Below are positions 1 to 27,281 of a stretch of 39,342 nt of DNA, in pieces. How positions within the stretch are numbered: the first letter of the stretch is position 1; every line of letters starts with the position of its first letter. The notes under the pieces are model-generated. The model was not told the origin of the DNA, ran no database searches, and was given only the letters and a program-made list of their open reading frames with translations. Position numbers and translations under genes: made by a program. This stretch comes from Clostridiales bacterium (GTDB taxonomy: Bacteria > Bacillota > Clostridia > Oscillospirales > Oscillospiraceae): assembly GCA_020860385.1 (NCBI GenBank), contig JAJBUK010000017.1, forward strand, positions 1 to 39,342, read 5' to 3'.

Positions 1-416
1 TCGGCGGGAACCAGCGGGATTCCCTGCACCTGACGGTCTGCCGCAGCAGGGACATCCTCGATGAAATCAACCAGGCCACCGCCGCCGCTATGAAAATTGA
101 GCCGCGGGATTTCTTCTATGGTGCGCCTGCGGCGGTCTTTGTCTCCGCTGCACCCAAGCAGATGGCCCCCAGCGTGGAATACGCCAACGCGGCCTGTGTC
201 ATTGAGAATATGCTGATTGCCGCCACGGATGCCGGGGTGGACAACATTTATCTCTGGGGCGCTGTGCAGGCCCTTGGCCGGAACCCTGAGTTGTGCGCGA
301 AGATGGGGATTCCGGAGGGCTTCAAGCCTGTCTCCGCCGCGGCGCTGGGTTACAGCCTCAGCGGAAGCTCGGAGCCGAGGGAATTGTCTGTGTCTCTCAG
401 CACCAATTACATCTAA
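1..416 (+). CDS. Nitroreductase-family protein, C-terminal part (gene starts before the window)
   Basis: The frame is open from base 3 with no start codon before residue 30, so the gene enters from the left edge and only about the last 137 residues are seen. The segment starting GGNQRDSLHLTVCRS, the following FFYGAPAAVFVSA strand and the ENMLIAATDAGVDNIYLWG helix match the dimer-interface half of FMN-dependent nitroreductases, where AAxxNMLLAATDLGLG is typical. Such enzymes use NAD(P)H to reduce nitro compounds, quinones or flavins in the cytoplasm. A hairpin follows the stop and separates it from the sirtuin operon. The exact substrate cannot be told. Confidence 0.75.
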   Translation, partial: GGNQRDSLHLTVCRSRDILDEINQATAAAMKIEPRDFFYGAPAAVFVSAAPKQMAPSVEYANAACVIENMLIAATDAGVDNIYLWGAVQALGRNPELCAKMGIPEGFKPVSAAALGYSLSGSSEPRELSVSLSTNYI

Positions 417-505: not shown

Positions 506-1231
506 ATGAAAAAGGAATATGCTGAGTTAAAGGAATACATAGAGCAGAGCAGCAGAACCGTCGCCGTCACCGGTGCGGGCATCTCCTACCTCTATGGGAT
601 GCGCAGGCTAAAACAGAGCGTCGGCCGGATGAACGCCGGGCGCATCTTTTCCGCGCCCTATGTCCGCAAGAACCCGGAGAAGTTTTATGCGGTCATGAAG
701 GATGCCTTTTTGGATGCCACCTTTGTCAAGGGGCCGAGCACGGTTCACAAGCAGTTGGCGGAGCTGGAGCGGCAGGGCAAGCTCTGCGGCATTGTCACCC
801 AGAATCTGGACTGCCTGCACACCATCGCCGGTTCCCAGAACGTGATCGAATTTCAGGGCAGCTTCCGTGACAATATCTGCATTGACTGCGGCACGCGCTG
901 CTATGATTATCAGGTGTGGAATCAGGGGCATATGCCCCTCTGTGAGAAGTGCGGCGCACCCCTGATGCCGACGGCGTTCTGCCGGGACAGCAGCGCCAGC
1001 ACCGAGGTCTCCCGGGATAGTATGCGGAAGGCTGCCGACCTGATTGCCCAGGCAGATTTGGTGCTGATCATCGGCACCACGGGCTTCCGCAGCGAGGAAT
1101 ATCTGAGCCGGATGAAGGCCGGGACAAAGCTGGTGCAAATCAATCCGTCTGCAACGCAGTTCGACCAAATCGCCGACCTGAACATCCGGGCGGATGCCGC
1201 CGAAGCGCTGGAGGCCGTCTTAAACGGGTGA
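506..1231 (+). CDS. Divergent Sir2-family protein 1 with catalytic His replaced by Gln
   Basis: This 241-residue single-domain sirtuin starts at an ATG nine bases after AGGAGG. Seen: the NAD-binding GAGIS at 23-27, TQNLDCLHTIAGS at 98-110, a zinc ribbon of Cys125/128/146/149 and a late VLIIGTT strand. In deacetylases the motif after the AG loop is E-L-H-G. Here it is EFQGS with Gln117 where the general-base His belongs. The usual SGIPDFR loop after GAGIS is also absent (YLYGMRRL instead). Loss of the His makes ordinary lysine deacetylation unlikely. The same His-to-Gln change is known in SirTM enzymes that ADP-ribosylate proteins. It leads a block of three tandem sirtuins followed by an ADP-ribose hydrolase-like gene, which favours ADP-ribosyl transfer or NAD hydrolysis as its job (inference). 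Confidence 0.85.
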   Translation: MKKEYAELKEYIEQSSRTVAVTGAGISYLYGMRRLKQSVGRMNAGRIFSAPYVRKNPEKFYAVMKDAFLDATFVKGPSTVHKQLAELERQGKLCGIVTQNLDCLHTIAGSQNVIEFQGSFRDNICIDCGTRCYDYQVWNQGHMPLCEKCGAPLMPTAFCRDSSASTEVSRDSMRKAADLIAQADLVLIIGTTGFRSEEYLSRMKAGTKLVQINPSATQFDQIADLNIRADAAEALEAVLNG

Positions 1232-1263
1232 CGCCTATGCTGTTTTCCAAAGAAGGTAAAAAT

Positions 1264-1968
1264 ATGGATAAAATCCAACAGTTGGCCGACTATATTGACC
1301 GAAGCGGCAGCATCGTCGCCACCACCGGAGCAGGCATTTCCGTTGGCGGCGGCGGAGTCACTTATGGCCAGATGCGCACCGCCCGCAGAGGTGGCGGCAG
1401 ATGGGGCTCCGGCGCAGGGTCCTTTTTGCCCACTTATCTGGAGACGATGTTCTCCTATCAGCCCAGCTTTGCCCACTACGCTCTGGCGGACCTGGAAGCG
1501 GAGGGCAAGCTCACCGGCATCATCACCACGAACGTGGACTGTATGCACACGATTGCCGGGTCAAAGAACGTAGCGGAAATTCAGGGCAGCCTCCAGGTCA
1601 ACTGCTGCGCCAAGTGTGGCCGCCATTATGACGGGTATGAGATTTGGAAACAGGACGAACTGCCCCGATGCGACGCCTGCGGCGGGGAAATCCTCCCCTG
1701 GCCGCTGTACAGCCATATCGGCCTGTGGGACACGGATGTCAGGAAAGCCAGAGAATGGATTTCCAAAGCGGATTTGATTCTCGTCATCGGGACACGGGGC
1801 AACTACGGAGACGTTTACTGGAACTACCGGCGGAGAGATGCAGCCATCGTCCAAATCAATCCGGGGCACACCGGCTTTGACAGCGTGGCTGATTTGAACA
1901 TCCGCCAGGGTTCCGACGATGTTTTCCAAAGCCTGAAGAAAATACGGAATACAACTGACGGAATGTGA
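1264..1968 (+). CDS. Divergent Sir2-family protein 2 with catalytic His replaced by Gln
   Basis: This 234-residue protein starts at an ATG seven bases after AGAAGG; an upstream in-frame ATG has no such site. Motifs: GAGIS at 22-26, a Gly-rich loop GGGGVTYGQ in place of the deacetylase SGIPDFR loop, TTNVDCMHTIAGS (the usual TQN changed to TTN), EIQGS with Gln107 at the catalytic His position, zinc Cys115/118/136/139 and LVIGTRG. It is much closer to the next gene than to the previous one: both share the zinc-ribbon region, LYSHIGLWD and WNYRRRDA. This points to a recent duplication. TTN-x-D plus a Gln in place of His is also what SirTM proteins have, yet the overall length and zinc ribbon are those of ordinary small sirtuins. 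Likely NAD-consuming; substrate unknown. Confidence 0.85.
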   Translation: MDKIQQLADYIDRSGSIVATTGAGISVGGGGVTYGQMRTARRGGGRWGSGAGSFLPTYLETMFSYQPSFAHYALADLEAEGKLTGIITTNVDCMHTIAGSKNVAEIQGSLQVNCCAKCGRHYDGYEIWKQDELPRCDACGGEILPWPLYSHIGLWDTDVRKAREWISKADLILVIGTRGNYGDVYWNYRRRDAAIVQINPGHTGFDSVADLNIRQGSDDVFQSLKKIRNTTDGM

Positions 1969-1989
1969 TAAAGATAGGATGTGAACCTG

Positions 1990-2706
1990 ATGAGAATTTC
2001 CAGGGGAGGCCGGAACGAGGACAAAATAGAGCAGTTAGCCGAATACATTGACCAGAGCCACGCGGCGGTGGCCATCACCGGCGCAGGGATTTCTCTTTCC
2101 GGCGGCGGCGTGACCTATGGGCAGCTTTCCCGCTCCATCCGCCCGGGCGGATTTGGGAGCGACCGCTTTTTGCGCTCTTACATCAAAACCATGCATCACT
2201 ATCACCCCAGCCCCAGCCACTATGCCCTCCGGGAGTTGGAGGAGGAAGGGAAGCTGATGGGAATCATCACCACAAACGAGGACTGCATGCACACGATGGC
2301 TGGTTCCAAAAACGTGGCGGAAATCCAGGGCAGCTGTCAAATCAACCGCTGCTCCAAATGCGGGCGGCACTACGACGGCTATGAGATATGGGAGCAGGAG
2401 GAGCTGCCCAAATGCGACTTCTGCGGTGGGACGATTCTCCCGTGGGAGCTGTACAGCCACATCGGGCTTTGGGACGAGGGCGTGAAAAAGGCGCAGGACT
2501 GGATTTCCAGGGCGGATTTGATTCTTGTGATTGGAACCAACGGCTATTATGGGAGCGCCTATTGGAATTACCGGCGGAGAGACGCCGTCATTGTCCAAAT
2601 CAATCCGGGGCACACCGGCTTTGACAGCATGGCCGACCTGAACATCCGGGAACCTTGCGACGATGTGTTCCGGAAATTGAAAGAAAGGCGGGGCGAACAT
2701 GGCTGA
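1990..2706 (+). CDS. Divergent Sir2-family protein 3 with catalytic His replaced by Gln
   Basis: It begins 21 bases after sirtuin 2. The ATG at 1990 sits ten bases after AGGA; a GTG at 1981 is too close to that site. The 238-residue product has GAGISLSGGGVTYGQ (31-45), TTNEDCMHTMAGS (an acidic Glu where Ile/Val/Leu is usual before the motif Asp), EIQGS with Gln113 at the catalytic position and zinc Cys121/124/142/145. Its last bases overlap the ATG of the PARG-like gene by eight bases, implying translational coupling. The Glu in TTNED is unique among the three copies and might alter base selectivity or disable one paralogue. Function by context: ADP-ribosyl transfer or NAD cleavage, reversed by the next gene product (inference). 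Confidence 0.85.
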   Translation: MRISRGGRNEDKIEQLAEYIDQSHAAVAITGAGISLSGGGVTYGQLSRSIRPGGFGSDRFLRSYIKTMHHYHPSPSHYALRELEEEGKLMGIITTNEDCMHTMAGSKNVAEIQGSCQINRCSKCGRHYDGYEIWEQEELPKCDFCGGTILPWELYSHIGLWDEGVKKAQDWISRADLILVIGTNGYYGSAYWNYRRRDAVIVQINPGHTGFDSMADLNIREPCDDVFRKLKERRGEHG

Positions 2707-3706
2707 ACAGGAAATCAAAAAGGAGCTATCCGAAGAAGAACGGCTCAAACAGATGGCGGCGCAGATGCGGGCGCGGGAGTATCAGGGCCTCTCTGAGGAG
2801 GAAATTCAGGAGCGGGAACGGCAGAAGGAAATGCGCAGGAAAAAGAACATTGCGATACTGGAGGACACGCTGGCCATTCTGGAACAGGGCAGCTACGGCA
2901 AGGACGGGCAAGACGTGCATCTTGCCTTCTCACCGGAGCAGATGCGGGAGATTCAGGTATTCCTTCCGGAAGAACTTATATCACTCGCTGCTATGGAACA
3001 GGACGAAGCAACGTCACAGAGCGCCTCCTGCACCTTCGGCTGCGAAAACGAGGACGCCCTTGTCCTGGCGCAGAAGCAGTATCAGCTTCTGAAAAATGCG
3101 GGAGACCCTACACCCAAAATCCTCGTGCTGAATCTGGCCAGCGCCACCCGGCCCGGCGGCCAAACCCGGAACGGAGCCAGCGCCCAGGAGGAGGATCTCT
3201 GCCGGAGGACATCCCTGCTGCTGTCTCTGGAGAGCGAGGGCGCAAAGCGGTACTACGACTACAACAACGCCAGAAAGACCCACATGGGGTCGGACGGCGT
3301 GCTGATCTCTCCCAACGTGGAGGTCATCAAAGACGCCTCGTCCGAAACCCTTGCCCAGCCGTTCCCCATCTCCGTCATGAGCTGCGCCGCCCCGATGGTG
3401 CGCCTGGGGCTGGAGGGGATGAGCCAGCAGGAATACGAGGAAATGCTTTATCGGCGTATCCAGGGTATGCTGCTGGCGGCGGCCTCCCAGGGTTATCGCC
3501 ACCTGATTTTGGGGGCCTTCGGCTGCGGCGTGTACGGGAACGATGCGGCGCTGGTTTCCGATTTGTTTGCCCGTGCCATCCGGGCGTTCACCTTTGCCGG
3601 GATGGGCAGCAGGCAGATTTTTGATTCCATTCAGTTTGCCGTCCTTTGCCGTCCGGGGAAGGATTATAATTACAAGGAGTTTTGCCGGAATTTTTCGCCC
3701 GATTGA
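2699..3706 (+). CDS. Bacterial-type PARG-like ADP-ribose glycohydrolase (TIGR02452/DUF2263 family)
   Basis: This 335-residue protein has a charged, probably coiled N-terminus (residues 1-60, rich in Glu/Arg/Lys) and a catalytic domain after about residue 80. The family signature is visible: VLNLASATRPGG at 143-154 and the catalytic GGQ-x7-QEE at 153-165 (normally GGG-x6-8-QEE, so the third Gly is Gln here), followed by DLCRRTSLL. A later GAFGCGVYGND segment is the phosphate-binding loop typical of macrodomain folds. Such enzymes cleave ADP-ribose from proteins or polymers, with the second Glu of QEE as the catalytic residue. It overlaps the stop of sirtuin 3 by eight bases, so writer candidates and an eraser candidate are translated together. 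Its activity on the products of these sirtuins is inference. Confidence 0.85.
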   Translation: MAEQEIKKELSEEERLKQMAAQMRAREYQGLSEEEIQERERQKEMRRKKNIAILEDTLAILEQGSYGKDGQDVHLAFSPEQMREIQVFLPEELISLAAMEQDEATSQSASCTFGCENEDALVLAQKQYQLLKNAGDPTPKILVLNLASATRPGGQTRNGASAQEEDLCRRTSLLLSLESEGAKRYYDYNNARKTHMGSDGVLISPNVEVIKDASSETLAQPFPISVMSCAAPMVRLGLEGMSQQEYEEMLYRRIQGMLLAAASQGYRHLILGAFGCGVYGNDAALVSDLFARAIRAFTFAGMGSRQIFDSIQFAVLCRPGKDYNYKEFCRNFSPD

Positions 3707-5243: not shown

Positions 5244-5717
5244 TTGGAAATCGCAATCAAAAGAGCGGACAGCGCCGACTTGGAGGCGCTGATGCATTGG
5301 CGGGAGATCGTTCTGCGGGAAGTGTTTTCCATCCCCGCCGGGGAGGATATGACAGAGCTTCTCGCCGCAAACCGAGCGTATTATCAAACCGCATTGAAAA
5401 CGGGGGAACACATCGCCTGTTTCGCCTGCGCTGGAGAAGAAATCGTGGGCTGCGGCGGCGTCTGTCTCTACAGGGAGATGCCCTCGCCGGACAATCCCGG
5501 CGGCAAATGCGGGTATCTGATGAATATTTACACCGTTCCCGCTATGCGTCAACAGGGCGTGGGGAAGAAAACCGTGCAATGGCTGGTGCGGGAGGCGAAG
5601 CGCTGGGGCGCGGGGAAAGTCTATCTGGAGTCGTCGGAGCAGGCGTATCCTATGTATCGGTCATTGGGTTTCCAGGACATGAAGGGGTATTTGAAATATA
5701 ACGAAACATCGATTTAG
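5244..5717 (+). CDS. GNAT-family N-acetyltransferase
   Basis: The 157-residue product starts at a TTG two bases after the adenylation-gene stop, with AAGGAGGGG about 11 bases upstream. The acetyl-CoA binding segment is IYTVPAMRQQGVGKKTVQWLV (Q-x-x-G-V-G loop), preceded by the beta-4 strand and followed by YLESSEQAYPMYRSLGF, the typical end of a GNAT fold. It transfers an acetyl group from acetyl-CoA to an amine whose identity the sequence does not reveal. The near-zero spacing puts it in the same transcript as the adenylation domain and the following esterase. Confidence 0.85.
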   Translation: MEIAIKRADSADLEALMHWREIVLREVFSIPAGEDMTELLAANRAYYQTALKTGEHIACFACAGEEIVGCGGVCLYREMPSPDNPGGKCGYLMNIYTVPAMRQQGVGKKTVQWLVREAKRWGAGKVYLESSEQAYPMYRSLGFQDMKGYLKYNETSI

Positions 5718-5733: not shown

Positions 5734-6426
5734 ATGAAAGCAGAAAAGGAAGTTACGCTGCAAGTAAACGGGAAAAAGATACAGGTCTACTGCGCACCTC
5801 AGTCGGCGCCGCTGGTGATTTACCACGCCGTCATGGGGGAGGGGAAAGCCCTGTGGCAGGCCTGCCGGAAGTTGGACTGTCCGGCATTTTCGCTGGCGGT
5901 CATCAACGGCGTGAGTTGGGACGACGATATGACGCCGTGGCCCATCCCGCCCATCTCAAAAGGGGACACCCCCTGTTCCGGCGGCGCGGATGCCTGGCTG
6001 GCGCAGCTTACCGGCGAACTGCTGCCGAAAATCACGGCGGCGCTCCCGGTCCCGCCGACCTACTGCGCCCTGTCCGGCTATTCCCTGGCGGGGCTGTTCG
6101 CCGTGTACGCGGGGTACAAAACGGACTGCTTTTCCCGCCTCGTCTCTGCGTCCGGCTCCCTGTGGTATCCTGACTTTGTGACCTTTATCCAGCAGCACCC
6201 CATTTCGGAGCAGGTGAAGGTGATTTACTTCTCCCTGGGCGACCAGGAGAGCCACACGAAAAATCCCTACCTCGCCCCGGTGGAGGAGAACACCCGATTC
6301 CTGGCGCAGTATTTTTCGGAACAGGGTATTCAAACGACCTTCCAGCTGAACAAAGGAAACCACTACCGCAACTCCACAGGGCGGATGGCCGCAGGGATTC
6401 AGTGGGCGCTGGAGCAGCGGCTTTGA
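5734..6426 (+). CDS. Alpha/beta-hydrolase, putative esterase (Fes/IroE-like fold)
   Basis: The 230-residue product starts at an ATG behind AGGGAG, 16 bases after the GNAT stop. The nucleophile elbow is GYSLAG at 115-120 (Ser117). A later FSLGDQE strand can supply the acid and NKGNHYRNS near the C-terminus the His of the triad. Layout and length match the putative esterase family that includes enterobactin and tetraacyl esterases. There is no signal peptide, so it acts in the cytoplasm. Beside an adenylation domain it might release or hydrolyse an aminoacyl or peptidyl ester, but this is a guess. A strong hairpin terminator follows and ends the operon. Confidence 0.8.
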   Translation: MKAEKEVTLQVNGKKIQVYCAPQSAPLVIYHAVMGEGKALWQACRKLDCPAFSLAVINGVSWDDDMTPWPIPPISKGDTPCSGGADAWLAQLTGELLPKITAALPVPPTYCALSGYSLAGLFAVYAGYKTDCFSRLVSASGSLWYPDFVTFIQQHPISEQVKVIYFSLGDQESHTKNPYLAPVEENTRFLAQYFSEQGIQTTFQLNKGNHYRNSTGRMAAGIQWALEQRL

Positions 6427-22887: not shown

Positions 22888-23390
22888 CTTTAGCACCTTG
22901 CCTTGCCGGTAGGTTGCTGTGCGGTCTTAGGGCTTGTCCCTTACGCACTCTTTATGGTGATTATAAGATACCACAGCGAACGTTGCGCGTCAAGCGTTTT
23001 CTGTATCCGCTTAAGCATTTGCAATGAATCCTTGAGCCGCAGGATGCCTTCCGCGCGAATGAATATTGTGAAGCCCGATAGCAAGCGTGGAAACAAACCG
23101 GCTGCAACTTTATAAAATTAGACAAAGCGGATATCCACGTCCCACCAAAATGTGTTATACTATATGCAGCGGCCCCAATCCGGCTGGTTGCTGCAAATTA
23201 AACCAGGCAGGATGGCAAGGTCATATGCAGTCACAGATTCCAAAAGCGGTTTTCCTATGGCTGGCGTACCAAAACCCTGTGGCCGAAAATTCCCGCGGAC
23301 GGTCAGCGCCGCATCGTGACTGGCGAATGACTGCCAGGGAACATATCCTATTAAACCGCAATCATAAATGAAATGCAGGGGGGATTTGAA
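22888..23390. other. Intergenic region of about 500 bases
   Basis: Apart from the minus-strand promoter at 22965-22993 I see no gene here. A TTATAC at 23155-23160 is a possible -10 for the CFI-box gene, without a convincing -35. Short open frames lack ribosome sites and recognisable sequence. Confidence 0.4.
22965..22993 (-). promoter_or_regulatory. Promoter of the hypothetical gene
   Basis: On the minus strand -35 TTGACG (22988-22993) and -10 TATCTT (22965-22970) are 17 bases apart, followed directly by ATAAT. The leader to the start codon at 22787 is about 170 bases. Confidence 0.45.
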
Positions 23391-23975
23391 ATGGCAAAGA
23401 AGGGAGAAAGCAGACCGGGTCTGTTCGGGTCAGTGAATCACTACGATGAACACGGCAAGAAAATTGGCCGCAGTGAGCCCAACTTCTTTGGTGGATACAA
23501 TCATTATGATAACAAAGGCCATAAGACCGGCCATTCCGATCCGGCGTTTTTCGGGGGCTATAACCACTACGATAACCACGGCAAGAAAACAGGACGCAGC
23601 GACCCCAATTTCTTCGGAAGCTATTCGCATAAGGATAGCAGAGGCAAACGAACCGGTTCCAGCGACCCAAACCTGCTTGGTGGCTATTCCCATAACGATA
23701 GACAGGGCTGCTATGTGGCCACCTGCGTATATGGCTCTTATGATTGTCCGCAGGTATGGACGCTTCGCCGTTTCCGCGATAATACGCTGGCCAGGACGAG
23801 GCTCGGAAGATGCTTCATACATACCTATTATACTATAAGTCCCACGATTGTAAAGTGGTTTTGCAGCACACGCTGGTTTCAGAGCATGTGGCGGAGTGTG
23901 CTGAATCAAATCGTTGCAAAACTACAGCAAAAGGGAATAGAAGATACCCCATACAAGGATAGGAGCTGGAGATAA
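23391..23975 (+). CDS. CFI-box-CTERM protein with five tandem 21-residue repeats
   Basis: The start is the ATG at 23391 behind GCAGGGGGG. The 194-residue product has five near-copies of a 21-residue unit, P-x-F-F-G-x-Y-N-H-Y-D-x-x-G-K-K-T-G-R-S-D (residues about 9-113), rich in His, Tyr, Asp and Gly. These run into GCYVATCVYGSYDCPQVWTLRRFRD and LGRCFIHTYYTISPTIV. The latter is the CFI-box C-terminal domain (usually CFIATAVYGS and LRxFRD), a small Cys/Tyr-rich module found at the ends of many bacterial proteins. There is no signal peptide. The repeats could bind metal or nucleic acid, but nothing shows this. Function unknown. Confidence 0.8.
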   Translation: MAKKGESRPGLFGSVNHYDEHGKKIGRSEPNFFGGYNHYDNKGHKTGHSDPAFFGGYNHYDNHGKKTGRSDPNFFGSYSHKDSRGKRTGSSDPNLLGGYSHNDRQGCYVATCVYGSYDCPQVWTLRRFRDNTLARTRLGRCFIHTYYTISPTIVKWFCSTRWFQSMWRSVLNQIVAKLQQKGIEDTPYKDRSWR

Positions 23976-25073: not shown

Positions 25074-25946
25074 TTATATAAGAAGCTGTGAAAGCGTTTT
25101 GGCGATATCGTTATCAATACAAATGGACCGTTTTTCAATCTCCTGCGGGCAAAACGCTTCCCCGTAGTTCACACAGGCGTAAACCGCTTTGGGGTTCTTT
25201 GCTGTCATTCTCCAGAAGGGATATTTGATGATGACAGGAGTATTCGCTCCAACACCCAGTTCCAGGAGCAGAACGTGCAGATGCTCGTGTCGACGGATAA
25301 AATCATTATAGCGTTCCGCGGCCCGGTGCCAGCCCTCGTCCTCCACAAAGGTATCGTCGCAGCGCAGATTCACATTCATAGGCGCGCCGCAGACCGGGCA
25401 GCGGGGAACCAGTTCGGAGGGAATCTTCATGTCCTTCTGCTCGGTTACCATCTGTCGGACGGCAGCTTCGTTGTCATAGGTCGTTTTGTGGCAGGGCCTG
25501 GAGCATTGCCAAAGGCCGTAATCGCCCTGAGTGTAGAATAGCCGCTTCTTGTCAAACCCGGCCAGCTGGAATTGATGGTCTACGTTAGTGGTCAGCACAA
25601 AATAGTCTTTGTCCTTCACCAGCTCCAACAGGTCGGCGTAGGGCTTCCCAACGCCAGCCTCATAGCGGTTGACCAGGATGTGCCGTGACCACCAGGCCCA
25701 GTATTCCTCCAGGGTGTCAAAGGGGTAAAAGCCGCCGGAATACATATCGGTGATGCCGTACTTTCTGTGAAAGTCCGAGAAATATTTTTCAAACCGCTCC
25801 CCGCTGTAGCTCATGCCTGCCGAGGCGGAGAGCCCCGCCCCTGCGCCGATGACGATGGCGTCCGCCGTCTCCAGTTCCTCTTTCAGCCGGTCAATGTTAT
25901 CCGAGCAGGTGTTGGTAGAGTTCCAGGTCGATGTCCTTGAAAACAT
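25074..25946 (-). CDS. SirTM-class sirtuin (protein ADP-ribosyltransferase)
   Basis: The 290-residue product overlaps the macrodomain gene by 50 bases; ATG 25946 has GAGGTG upstream. NAD loop GAGAGLS at 34-40 followed by ASAGMSYSGERF, then TTNVDHQFQLAGF (119-131) and YTQGDYGLWQC with Gln140 where deacetylases have His. Zinc Cys148/152/183/186 and NLRCDDTF with Arg195 follow. Asn121, Gln140 and Arg195 sit three residues after Asn118, Gln137 and Arg192, which I recall as the key residues of Streptococcus pyogenes SirTM. This pattern plus the adjoining macrodomain identifies the class M sirtuins that ADP-ribosylate proteins. The classic target, a lipoylated GcvH-like protein, is not encoded here. 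It differs clearly from the three shorter sirtuins at 506-2706. Confidence 0.9.
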   Translation of the reverse strand: MFSRTSTWNSTNTCSDNIDRLKEELETADAIVIGAGAGLSASAGMSYSGERFEKYFSDFHRKYGITDMYSGGFYPFDTLEEYWAWWSRHILVNRYEAGVGKPYADLLELVKDKDYFVLTTNVDHQFQLAGFDKKRLFYTQGDYGLWQCSRPCHKTTYDNEAAVRQMVTEQKDMKIPSELVPRCPVCGAPMNVNLRCDDTFVEDEGWHRAAERYNDFIRRHEHLHVLLLELGVGANTPVIIKYPFWRMTAKNPKAVYACVNYGEAFCPQEIEKRSICIDNDIAKTLSQLLI

Positions 25947-26670
25947 TGAAGATCACCTCGATTTTGCTGTGGGTCTGCTGTTGATACTCCTTCACGGTGC
26001 GGACGGCGATTTCCGCCGCCTTATCGTTGGGAAAGTGAAATTCTCCGGTGGAGATACAGCAGAACGCAACGCTCTGAATCCCGTTATCCTCTGCCAGCTC
26101 CAGACAGGAGCGATAGCAGGAGGCAAGCTGCTCCCTGTCGCTTCCGGTGAGCCAGCGGCCGACGATGGGACCGACGGTATGCAGCACATAGTCGCAGGGC
26201 AGATTAAATGCAGGCGTGAGTTTCGCCCTGCCGGTTTCCTCCTCATGCCCCTGCTGTGCCATCAAATCCGCACAGGCGGCCCGGAGTTGAATCCCCGCAT
26301 AGGTGTGGATGGCGTTGTCAATGCACCCGTGATTGGGGCAGAAGCAGCCCAGCACCTGAGAGTTGGCAGCGTTGACAATAGCACCGCAGCGTAACGTCGT
26401 GATGTCTCCCTGCCAGAGATAGAGCCCCTCCTGCACCGGCGTCAGATTGGATAAATCTGTAATCCCCTTCTGCCGGGCCGCCTCCTGTAAATAGGCGTCC
26501 TGCACTTCCAGAAACTCCGTACTGACCGGCTTCGGCATCCGCACGTTGAACAGCGCCCGGAGGAGCCGCTTCTGCTGGGATACATCGGCAGGTATGTCCA
26601 GCCCCTGATAGCGGCCATCTTCTGCAAGAAGCGCCTTGATTAAATATACTCTGCGTTCATCTTGTGTCAT
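25897..26670 (-). CDS. SirTM-linked macrodomain ADP-ribose hydrolase (zinc-macrodomain type)
   Basis: The 257-residue product starts two bases after the ferredoxin-fusion stop, with GAGG upstream. A helical N-terminal region (1-80, with DERRVYLIKALLAED) precedes the macrodomain. WQGDITTLRCGAIVNAANSQ binds ADP-ribose, GCFCPNHGCIDNAIHTYAG (108-126) carries the likely zinc ligands Cys109, His114 and Cys116, and CCISTGEFHFPNDKAAEIA is the phosphate loop. These zinc macrodomains remove the mark that the partner SirTM adds. Gene overlap with SirTM means the eraser is translated just before the writer. The fold and pairing are well known; the protein target in this organism is not. Confidence 0.92.
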   Translation of the reverse strand: MTQDERRVYLIKALLAEDGRYQGLDIPADVSQQKRLLRALFNVRMPKPVSTEFLEVQDAYLQEAARQKGITDLSNLTPVQEGLYLWQGDITTLRCGAIVNAANSQVLGCFCPNHGCIDNAIHTYAGIQLRAACADLMAQQGHEEETGRAKLTPAFNLPCDYVLHTVGPIVGRWLTGSDREQLASCYRSCLELAEDNGIQSVAFCCISTGEFHFPNDKAAEIAVRTVKEYQQQTHSKIEVIFNVFKDIDLELYQHLLG

Positions 26671-26672
26671 GG

Positions 26673-27281
26673 TTATCCTCTCTTTTCAATGGCATGCTCT
26701 GGACAGATTGACTCGCAGCGCCCGCAGCGGAGGCAGCGGCTTTGGTCAATGACTACCGGTTTTGTGGAGATGTCAATGCACTTCTGGGGGCAGACGGAAT
26801 AGCACAGCTTGCAGCCGATACAGGCGCTGCCCACAAAATAGCCGCTTACCACAGCCTCCGGCTGGCCAATCACAATGCTGTCCCGCGTCACATGGGAGGG
26901 GACGCTGATGTCGAAGTATTCGCCGCTGGCCTCGTACAGGTGGAACACCTCCAGGGCAGAGCGGGTATCGCCGGGGTAAATTGCCTGCATATAGGGGTTC
27001 TTTTTAAAAATCTCGTCCAGCTTTTCGCTGCCGATGTTCTGAATCTTTCCCCGCAGAGACACGCTTTTTTTGTCCTTCGTGGCGGACAGAGCGATATATC
27101 TCTGCTCCATGAGCTGAGCATAAAAGGCTTTGCCTTTCGCCGTCAGGAAGTACACACCCTGTTCGTCCCACAGCATCATGTCAATGGTGCGGGTCTGGGG
27201 ATGGCCGTCCGAGCCGATGGTGGCTACGGTGGCGGAGTGAAGGTTCTCCACCAGCAGCTTTAAATAATTGTTTCCGTTCAT
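26673..27281 (-). CDS. PNPOx-like FMN-binding domain fused to a 2[4Fe-4S] ferredoxin
   Basis: The 202-residue product is first in the macrodomain/SirTM transcript. Residues 1-130 are a split-barrel pyridoxamine-phosphate-oxidase-like domain (SATVATIGSDGHPQTRTIDMML, then GVYFLTAKGKAFYAQL), which normally binds FMN or F420. Residues 150-197 carry two ferredoxin motifs, Cys154/157/160/164 and Cys183/186/189/193, each ending CP. The protein is therefore a small cytoplasmic electron carrier or flavin reductase. In described SirTM operons an oxidoreductase is a common companion, so its presence fits a redox-linked ADP-ribosylation system. It may be the regulated partner or the electron source (inference). 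Confidence 0.88.
   Translation of the reverse strand: MNGNNYLKLLVENLHSATVATIGSDGHPQTRTIDMMLWDEQGVYFLTAKGKAFYAQLMEQRYIALSATKDKKSVSLRGKIQNIGSEKLDEIFKKNPYMQAIYPGDTRSALEVFHLYEASGEYFDISVPSHVTRDSIVIGQPEAVVSGYFVGSACIGCKLCYSVCPQKCIDISTKPVVIDQSRCLRCGRCESICPEHAIEKRG

Follow-up and report, generated by a model that had tools for sequence, protein, structure and literature searches.

In the SirTM/Zn-Macro gene pairs of S. pyogenes and S. aureus, the sirtuin is described as transferring ADP-ribose without deacylation: its Gln137 contacts the 3′-OH of the nicotinamide ribose, and changing Gln137 to His abolishes activity (PMC4518038). PMC11490716 describes SirTMs as the sole sirtuins that apparently act as transferases and nothing else. 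Among enzymes that remove ADP-ribose, poly(ADP-ribose) glycohydrolases (PARGs) are reported to cut ribose–ribose bonds with a GGGx6-8QEE catalytic motif, leaving the protein-proximal bond untouched (PMC7050489), and bacterial PARGs, whose physiological roles are described as unknown, are reported to strip ADP-ribose from RNA 2′-OH and phosphate ends (PMC11833690). Here we analyse a cassette of three tandem sirtuin genes and an overlapping PARG gene at positions 506–3706 (forward strand) of a 39,342-nucleotide stretch of DNA from a Clostridiales bacterium (the window), a complete contig (C106) from a 2.53-Mb genome in 142 contigs. A preliminary description had read this segment as triple tandem Sir2-fold genes followed by a PARG, and the open reading frames and their Pfam and NCBIfam matches bear it out. 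On balance, our analysis makes it somewhat more likely than not that the cassette is a reversible ADP-ribosylation system, in which transferase-type Gln sirtuins would act together with an ADP-ribosyl-removing PARG.

Sirtuins with glutamine at the catalytic position

The cassette comprises four genes:

506–1231, forward strand: s1, a Gln-type sirtuin of 241 amino acids with Gln117; AGGAGG upstream of the start; PF02146, 84.1 bits
1228–1968, forward strand: s2, a Gln-type sirtuin; start at GTG 1228 or ATG 1264 (the latter gives Gln107); PF02146, 70.3 bits
1981–2706, forward strand: s3, a Gln-type sirtuin with the TTNED variant; start at GTG 1981 or ATG 1990 (the latter gives Gln113); PF02146, 68.0 bits
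2699–3706, forward strand: a bacterial-type PARG with the altered glycine loop GGQ-x7-QEE (Gln155 for the third Gly; QEE at 163–165)

All three sirtuins exceed the Pfam SIR2 cut-off (PF02146, 24), and the nearest paralogue of s3 is s2 (71% identical). Where canonical sirtuins have E-[LV]-H-G, s1–s3 have E-[FI]-Q-G-S, which places Gln at the position of the catalytic His; the residue numbers 117, 107 and 113 given in the preliminary description hold with starts at 506, 1264 and 1990. The alignment also upholds its account of what was kept and lost: GAGIS, T-x-N-x-D and the two Cys-x2-Cys pairs of the zinc ribbon are retained in s1–s3, and the SGIPDFR cofactor loop is replaced in the aligned rows of s1–s3 and of a fourth paralogue, s4. 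Replaced, too, is the segment that aligns with the one by which canonical sirtuins bind the acyl peptide. The paralogue s4 is 52% identical to s2 and lies 3′ of the PARG gene in some species (L068:10342-11049, L106 and others).

A scan of species genomes found 189 relatives; the best 80 loci, identified by way of s2, were kept and hold 67 s1, 80 s2, 32 s3 and 11 s4 frames (190 in total, 10 of them not covered at the catalytic position). Two to four diverged paralogues lie side by side in cassette loci; the number of sirtuins varies, and the three genes first described are not a fixed layout. The catalytic position was read by pairwise alignment for each locus, with open frames as rows, so that a gene broken in the assembly may count more than once. 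Gln occupies it in 179 of the 180 readable frames and Glu in one, the s2 frame of L159 (L159:7959-8693); His was found in none. A second set of 18 loci from relatives plus the window, sharing genomes with the first, has Gln in 46/46 readable of 48 frames, and five further loci have it in 7/7 readable of 8. TxNxD retains both its Asn and its Asp in 234/234 readable of 246 frames. The Glu noticed in the TTNED of s3 recurs in 14/14 s3 rows, window included; a further row labelled s3 (52% identity) is an s4 paralogue and reads TTNVD. Among controls, the catalytic His is present in 44/44 CobB-type rows (29 read by script and 15 from the printed motif, their next residue lying outside the script's pattern), seven CobB-type sirtuins from the family of genome G409 have both His and SGIPDFR, and all 26 SirTM rows, in which the SirTM of the window is counted twice, have Gln.

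Since the NAD machinery is retained in the cassette sirtuins, along with the same exchange as in SirTM, ADP-ribose transfer is, by analogy, their likeliest activity. Two other readings of the same residues were weighed. The proteins could be deacylases of an unusual substrate, with Gln or another residue standing in for His and the PARG clearing O-acyl-ADP-ribose. Their sequence and fold are nearest to true deacetylases such as Sir2Tm, and a downstream GNAT gene could supply the acylating partner; however, the His-to-Gln exchange takes away the general base, the SGIPDFR loop and the acyl-peptide segment are both replaced, and GNAT is present in just 22 of the 80 loci, which together leave deacylation distinctly doubtful. 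They could also be non-catalytic NAD- or ADP-ribose-binding subunits whose paralogues form a hetero-oligomeric sensor regulating the PARG or a nitroreductase, as the loss of His and of the loop and the two to four adjoining diverged paralogues would allow. If the site were dead, its residues should drift; instead, Gln persists save for the one Glu, and the TxNxD Asn and Asp are kept without exception in the readable frames; we regard a purely sensory role as quite unlikely.

The partner PARG and its linkage to the sirtuins

The PARG frame, which shares an 8-base overlap with s3, passes the cut-offs of PF10021 (PARG_cat_microb; 96.4 bits against 23.5) and TIGR02452 (154.7 bits against 50), and its best solved relative is 3sig. 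An N-terminal extension of about 50 residues precedes the family match. The GGx-QEE signature reported earlier is present and reads GGQ-x7-QEE. Among 81 readable cassette PARG frames (of 85, from sets that likewise share genomes), QEE is kept in 80, and not one has Gly at the third position of GGG, where Gln stands in 52, Arg in 14, His in 14 and Lys in one. The GGG is intact in 21/21 control PARG loci without cassette linkage, of which 12 come from viral contigs without a cassette sirtuin and nine from relatives (eight on contigs other than those of the genome's sirtuin hits, one a fusion protein of genome G066). The cassette PARG therefore has its own regular loop change, alongside that of the sirtuins.

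PARG genes outside the cassette were also found. The genome of the window itself has another one, whose loop is the usual GGG and whose contig gave no sirtuin hit (G000:C95:31898-32251), and similar weak PARG hits were found in G020 and G029. The G066 protein (L078:7593-10127), considered as a possible sirtuin–PARG fusion and rejected as such, is a single 844-residue protein that fuses PARG, ADP-ribosylglycohydrolase (ARH) and NADAR. Against the cassette PARG, the PARG part of this fusion shows 48% identity, and a partial PARG in the viral contig of L161 does too.

In 63 of the 80 loci, a PARG gene is found no more than 5 kb from s2; nine loci lack one and eight are cut off by the contig end, which gives 63/72 uncut loci. 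An s1 relative stands directly upstream of s2 in 66/80 (nine without, five cut). All 61 clustered PARG frames are on the strand of the sirtuins, usually downstream of them, and upstream in L129. Linkage in other genomes, which the preliminary description had proposed as a test, is therefore found; the pairing stands for these 63 loci and fails in nine, as well as near two single-sirtuin relatives (L160 and L185, see below).

Among 98 genomes, cassette-type sirtuins and cassette-type PARG occur in the same 16 (own genome included), side by side and with best hits at least 70% identical; six further genomes have weaker PARG hits only (34–48%), one being the G066 fusion. Samples of the class and the phylum, each including the own genome and searched at E up to 1e-50, gave the cassette in 4/391 class genomes and in 1/398 phylum genomes, the one being the own genome. 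A plasmid search returned two records with partial matches at about 38% identity and a phage search 14 records with partial matches below 60%; viral contigs gave none for s1, and a wider alignment there gave just the L160 contig again.

Median pairwise dN/dS against the window, limited to pairs with dS of 0.2–2 that are not independent of one another, is 0.088 for s1 (52/81 comparisons), 0.075 for s2 (58/97), 0.077 for s3 (31/43) and 0.125 for the PARG (42/78). The four genes are thus under purifying selection and are kept rather than decaying. These low values, together with Gln in 179 of 180 readable paralogues, argue that the features seen in the cassette are not a matter of chance.

The sirtuins and the PARG might be functionally unrelated and co-travel as accessory genes of one mobile block. 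The absence of the PARG from nine of 72 uncut loci, its upstream position in L129 and the other genes that accompany the block would agree with this, whereas the 8-base overlap in the window, the shared strand in 61/61, the co-occurrence in the same 16/98 genomes and the restriction of the loop change to linked PARGs (Gly in 0/81 against 21/21) make it very unlikely.

Neighbouring genes, single-sirtuin relatives and SirTM

Four further genes of the window flank the cassette:

3–416, forward strand: 3′ part of a nitroreductase gene (PF00881, 28.0 bits, cut-off 23.5), cut by the contig start
3773–5242, forward strand: stand-alone amino-acid adenylation domain protein (TIGR01733, 344.1 bits); frequent downstream neighbour, not core
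5244–5717, forward strand: GNAT acetyltransferase (PF00583, 57 bits); frequent downstream neighbour, not core
5734–6426, forward strand: esterase (PF00756, 36.7 bits); frequent downstream neighbour, not core

Median dN/dS of the three downstream genes is 0.104 (adenylation protein), 0.205 (GNAT) and 0.096 (esterase). When neighbours in the 80 loci were clustered, some clusters being probably shadow frames that were ignored, the PF00881 nitroreductase and a divergent Rrf2 regulator each gave 30, the adenylation protein 23, GNAT 22, a small Cys-rich protein without Pfam match 20, the esterase 19, flavodoxin 14 and a PF14512 nitroreductase 11. All 31 members of the PF00881 cluster are on the sirtuins' strand. 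Of the 51 loci that extend 2.5 kb beyond the first sirtuin on its upstream side, 25 have a nitroreductase or flavodoxin somewhere in the locus and 22 have Rrf2. That about half of the testable loci have these genes suggests a redox or electrophile-stress setting. Elsewhere in the window, 23373–23975 (forward strand) encodes a protein of repeated FFGGYNHYDN-like units, for which a Pfam search at E up to 0.001 gave no match.

Two divergent relatives have a single Gln sirtuin:

L160:6888-8693, viral contig IMGVR_UViG_3300013830_000222: MarR, PF14512 nitroreductase and single Gln sirtuin, in tight order
L185, genome G409: nitroreductase (PF14512), MarR and single Gln sirtuin, in tight order

The surroundings of L160 contain frames that resemble phage tail genes when labelled by eye. 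Its sirtuin retains only SGIP of the canonical loop, a remnant that hints at a canonical ancestor. A reading that takes the two relatives for the deepest branch, and so dates the association with the nitroreductase before that with the PARG, is not borne out: in a tree with CobB as outgroup, both fall within the cassette clade, branching off later than s1 but earlier than s4, s2 and s3 (96/95 and 98/90). Either the PARG was lost in L160 and L185, or it joined the cassette later or more than once; loss is equally possible. As both have a nitroreductase and no PARG in the locus, the nitroreductase partner survives without the PARG, which is therefore not strictly needed.

The distribution and neighbourhood also bear on a reading in which the sirtuins consume NAD or make a signal, hydrolysing or cyclising NAD+ to a soluble product, while the PARG trims that product or protects the cell from damage by ADP-ribose, after the manner of conflict or dormancy systems. 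Sirtuin domains are described as effectors in several conflict systems (PMC9503650). The cassette is patchily distributed (16/98 genomes and 4/391 class genomes), and one relative, L160, lies in a viral contig. Against this, a PADLOC search at E up to 0.01 leaves all four proteins without a matching model, the Pfam scan shows no separate effector or sensor domain, and those neighbours that have been named comprise redox enzymes and regulators, with no defence genes among them. To our knowledge, moreover, the known Sir2 NADases retain the His, and we judge NAD consumption unlikely.

The window also encodes a SirTM of its own:

25074–26670, reverse strand: class-M SirTM (267 bits to SpySirTM 5a3a) and an overlapping Zn-Macro-type macrodomain gene
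25074–27281, reverse strand: the SirTM/macrodomain block with a PNPOx/4Fe-4S protein, the known SirTM/Zn-Macro arrangement

The GVGx[NT]TP motif, given as the SirTM pyrophosphate motif in PMC4518038, reads GVGANTP in this SirTM and is absent from s1–s3, which read GTTGF, GTRGN and GTNGY. A sequence search with s1 gave 18 chains at E up to 1e-10 with no SirTM among them, and one with s3 gave no SirTM in the best 60 of 98 chains. The best matches in these sequence searches, and those in fold, are Sir2Tm and its kin; SirTM structures are absent among the 50 fold matches listed, which carries no weight against kinship. On the motif, the sequence search and the partner (a PF10021 PARG and no zinc macrodomain, as first described), membership of s1–s3 in class M was rejected, and the earlier view of them as shortened SirTM-like proteins gives way to a place among Sir2Tm-like sirtuins.

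In a 74-row tree, SirTM, CobB and cassette sirtuins form three separate sides, an arrangement compatible with one origin of the Gln or with two; the program warned that long branches meet there. Omitting SirTM makes the cassette join the tree between two groups of CobB sequences, which have SH-aLRT values of 89 and 96; when the cassette is left out, the attachment point of SirTM is unresolved. SirTM is common (33/196 class genomes) and, among 34 genomes, occurs in 13/16 with the cassette (in G015 as just a 70-residue piece) and in 6/18 without it. Most cassette genomes also have SirTM: the two systems occur together and do not stand in for one another. In L120 (9719–9994) and L123 (3309–3584), a short frame directly after the cassette PARG is about 65% identical to part of SirTM and is perhaps a remnant.

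A candidate ADP-ribosylation cassette among known systems

The cassette is real and conserved; its function is what we infer, namely its catalysis, its acceptor and the direction of control. In the reversible ADP-ribosylation that we propose, the Gln sirtuins would bind NAD+ in the usual Sir2 pocket, release nicotinamide and hand ADP-ribose to an acceptor in place of deacylation. Transfer rather than deacylation is proposed because the His base is gone and the cofactor loop and the acyl-peptide segment are changed. The partner PARG, with its altered catalytic loop, would take the ADP-ribose off again, and the neighbouring flavoprotein is a possible acceptor, compare the operon-encoded GcvH-L for SirTM.

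Several observations weigh against this proposal. Since PARGs as described spare the protein-proximal bond (PMC7050489), a standard PARG would be poorly suited to protein mono-ADP-ribosylation, and the loop change could mean that the activity is lost or altered. No conserved Arg stands at the column of SirTM Arg192, the conserved partner of the Gln there, in a part where the alignment is weak (SirTM is 22% identical to s1). The nine uncut loci that lack the PARG (9/72) each have at least 4.5 kb of downstream sequence, neither L160 nor L185 has one in its locus, and G409, 98% complete, gave no PF10021 match genome-wide. Nitroreductase and flavodoxin are both lacking in 26 of the 51 testable loci.

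The reported bond preference of PARGs would, taken literally, point to a ribose-hydroxyl, a phosphate or a chain as acceptor, unless the changed loop alters that preference. A more specific version supposes that sirtuins confined to transfer arose a second time, independently, as a group whose tandem paralogues divide the labour of making ribose-hydroxyl-linked ADP-ribose, either on an RNA 2′-OH or as a short chain that one paralogue starts and another extends. Such a product would contain the bond that PARGs cut and would therefore account for a PARG as the partner and for more than one writer; we rate this version as a rather improbable one.

If the proposal of reversible ADP-ribosylation is true, a sirtuin lineage apart from SirTM has the same His-to-Gln exchange and a different eraser, and some Clostridia apparently have a second, differently built way to add ADP-ribose to cell components and to remove it. 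The cassette would let one ask whether His-to-Gln alone turns a deacylase into a transferase, and a PARG with a regular writer partner would offer a concrete substrate to look for. The preliminary description knew of no system with such a layout, and among the titles and abstract openings listed no paper on a sirtuin–PARG operon appears; an earlier mention in work on NAD-dependent gene neighbourhoods is possible.

Among described systems, SirTM/Zn-Macro shares with the cassette the Gln in place of the catalytic His, the retained NAD-site Asn and Asp, a writer–eraser gene pair, oxidoreductase neighbours in some members and the overall logic of writer, eraser and flavin enzymes. The cassette sirtuins differ in belonging by sequence to another lineage without GVGx[NT]TP, in numbering up to four against one, and in their eraser, which is of the PARG class and not a zinc macrodomain. 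The canonical Sir2 deacylases (Sir2Tm, 1yc5; 1m2k, which we take to be Sir2Af1) are the best sequence and fold matches and share GAGIS, TxNxD and the tetra-Cys zinc ribbon, whereas in the cassette the catalytic His is replaced and the SGIPDFR loop and the acyl-peptide segment are changed. The bacterial-type PARGs (DUF2263, PF10021/TIGR02452; 3sig, D. radiodurans DRB0099) resemble the cassette PARG in family score and QEE motif but not in its Gln, His, Arg or Lys at the third Gly, its N-terminal extension or its linkage to sirtuins. Finally, the sirtuin–macrodomain pairs described as type II toxin–antitoxin-like (PMC9503650) follow a similar two-gene logic of an ADP-ribosylating sirtuin and a remover, from which the cassette departs in having a remover of the PARG class, several writers and, in about half of the testable loci, redox neighbours.

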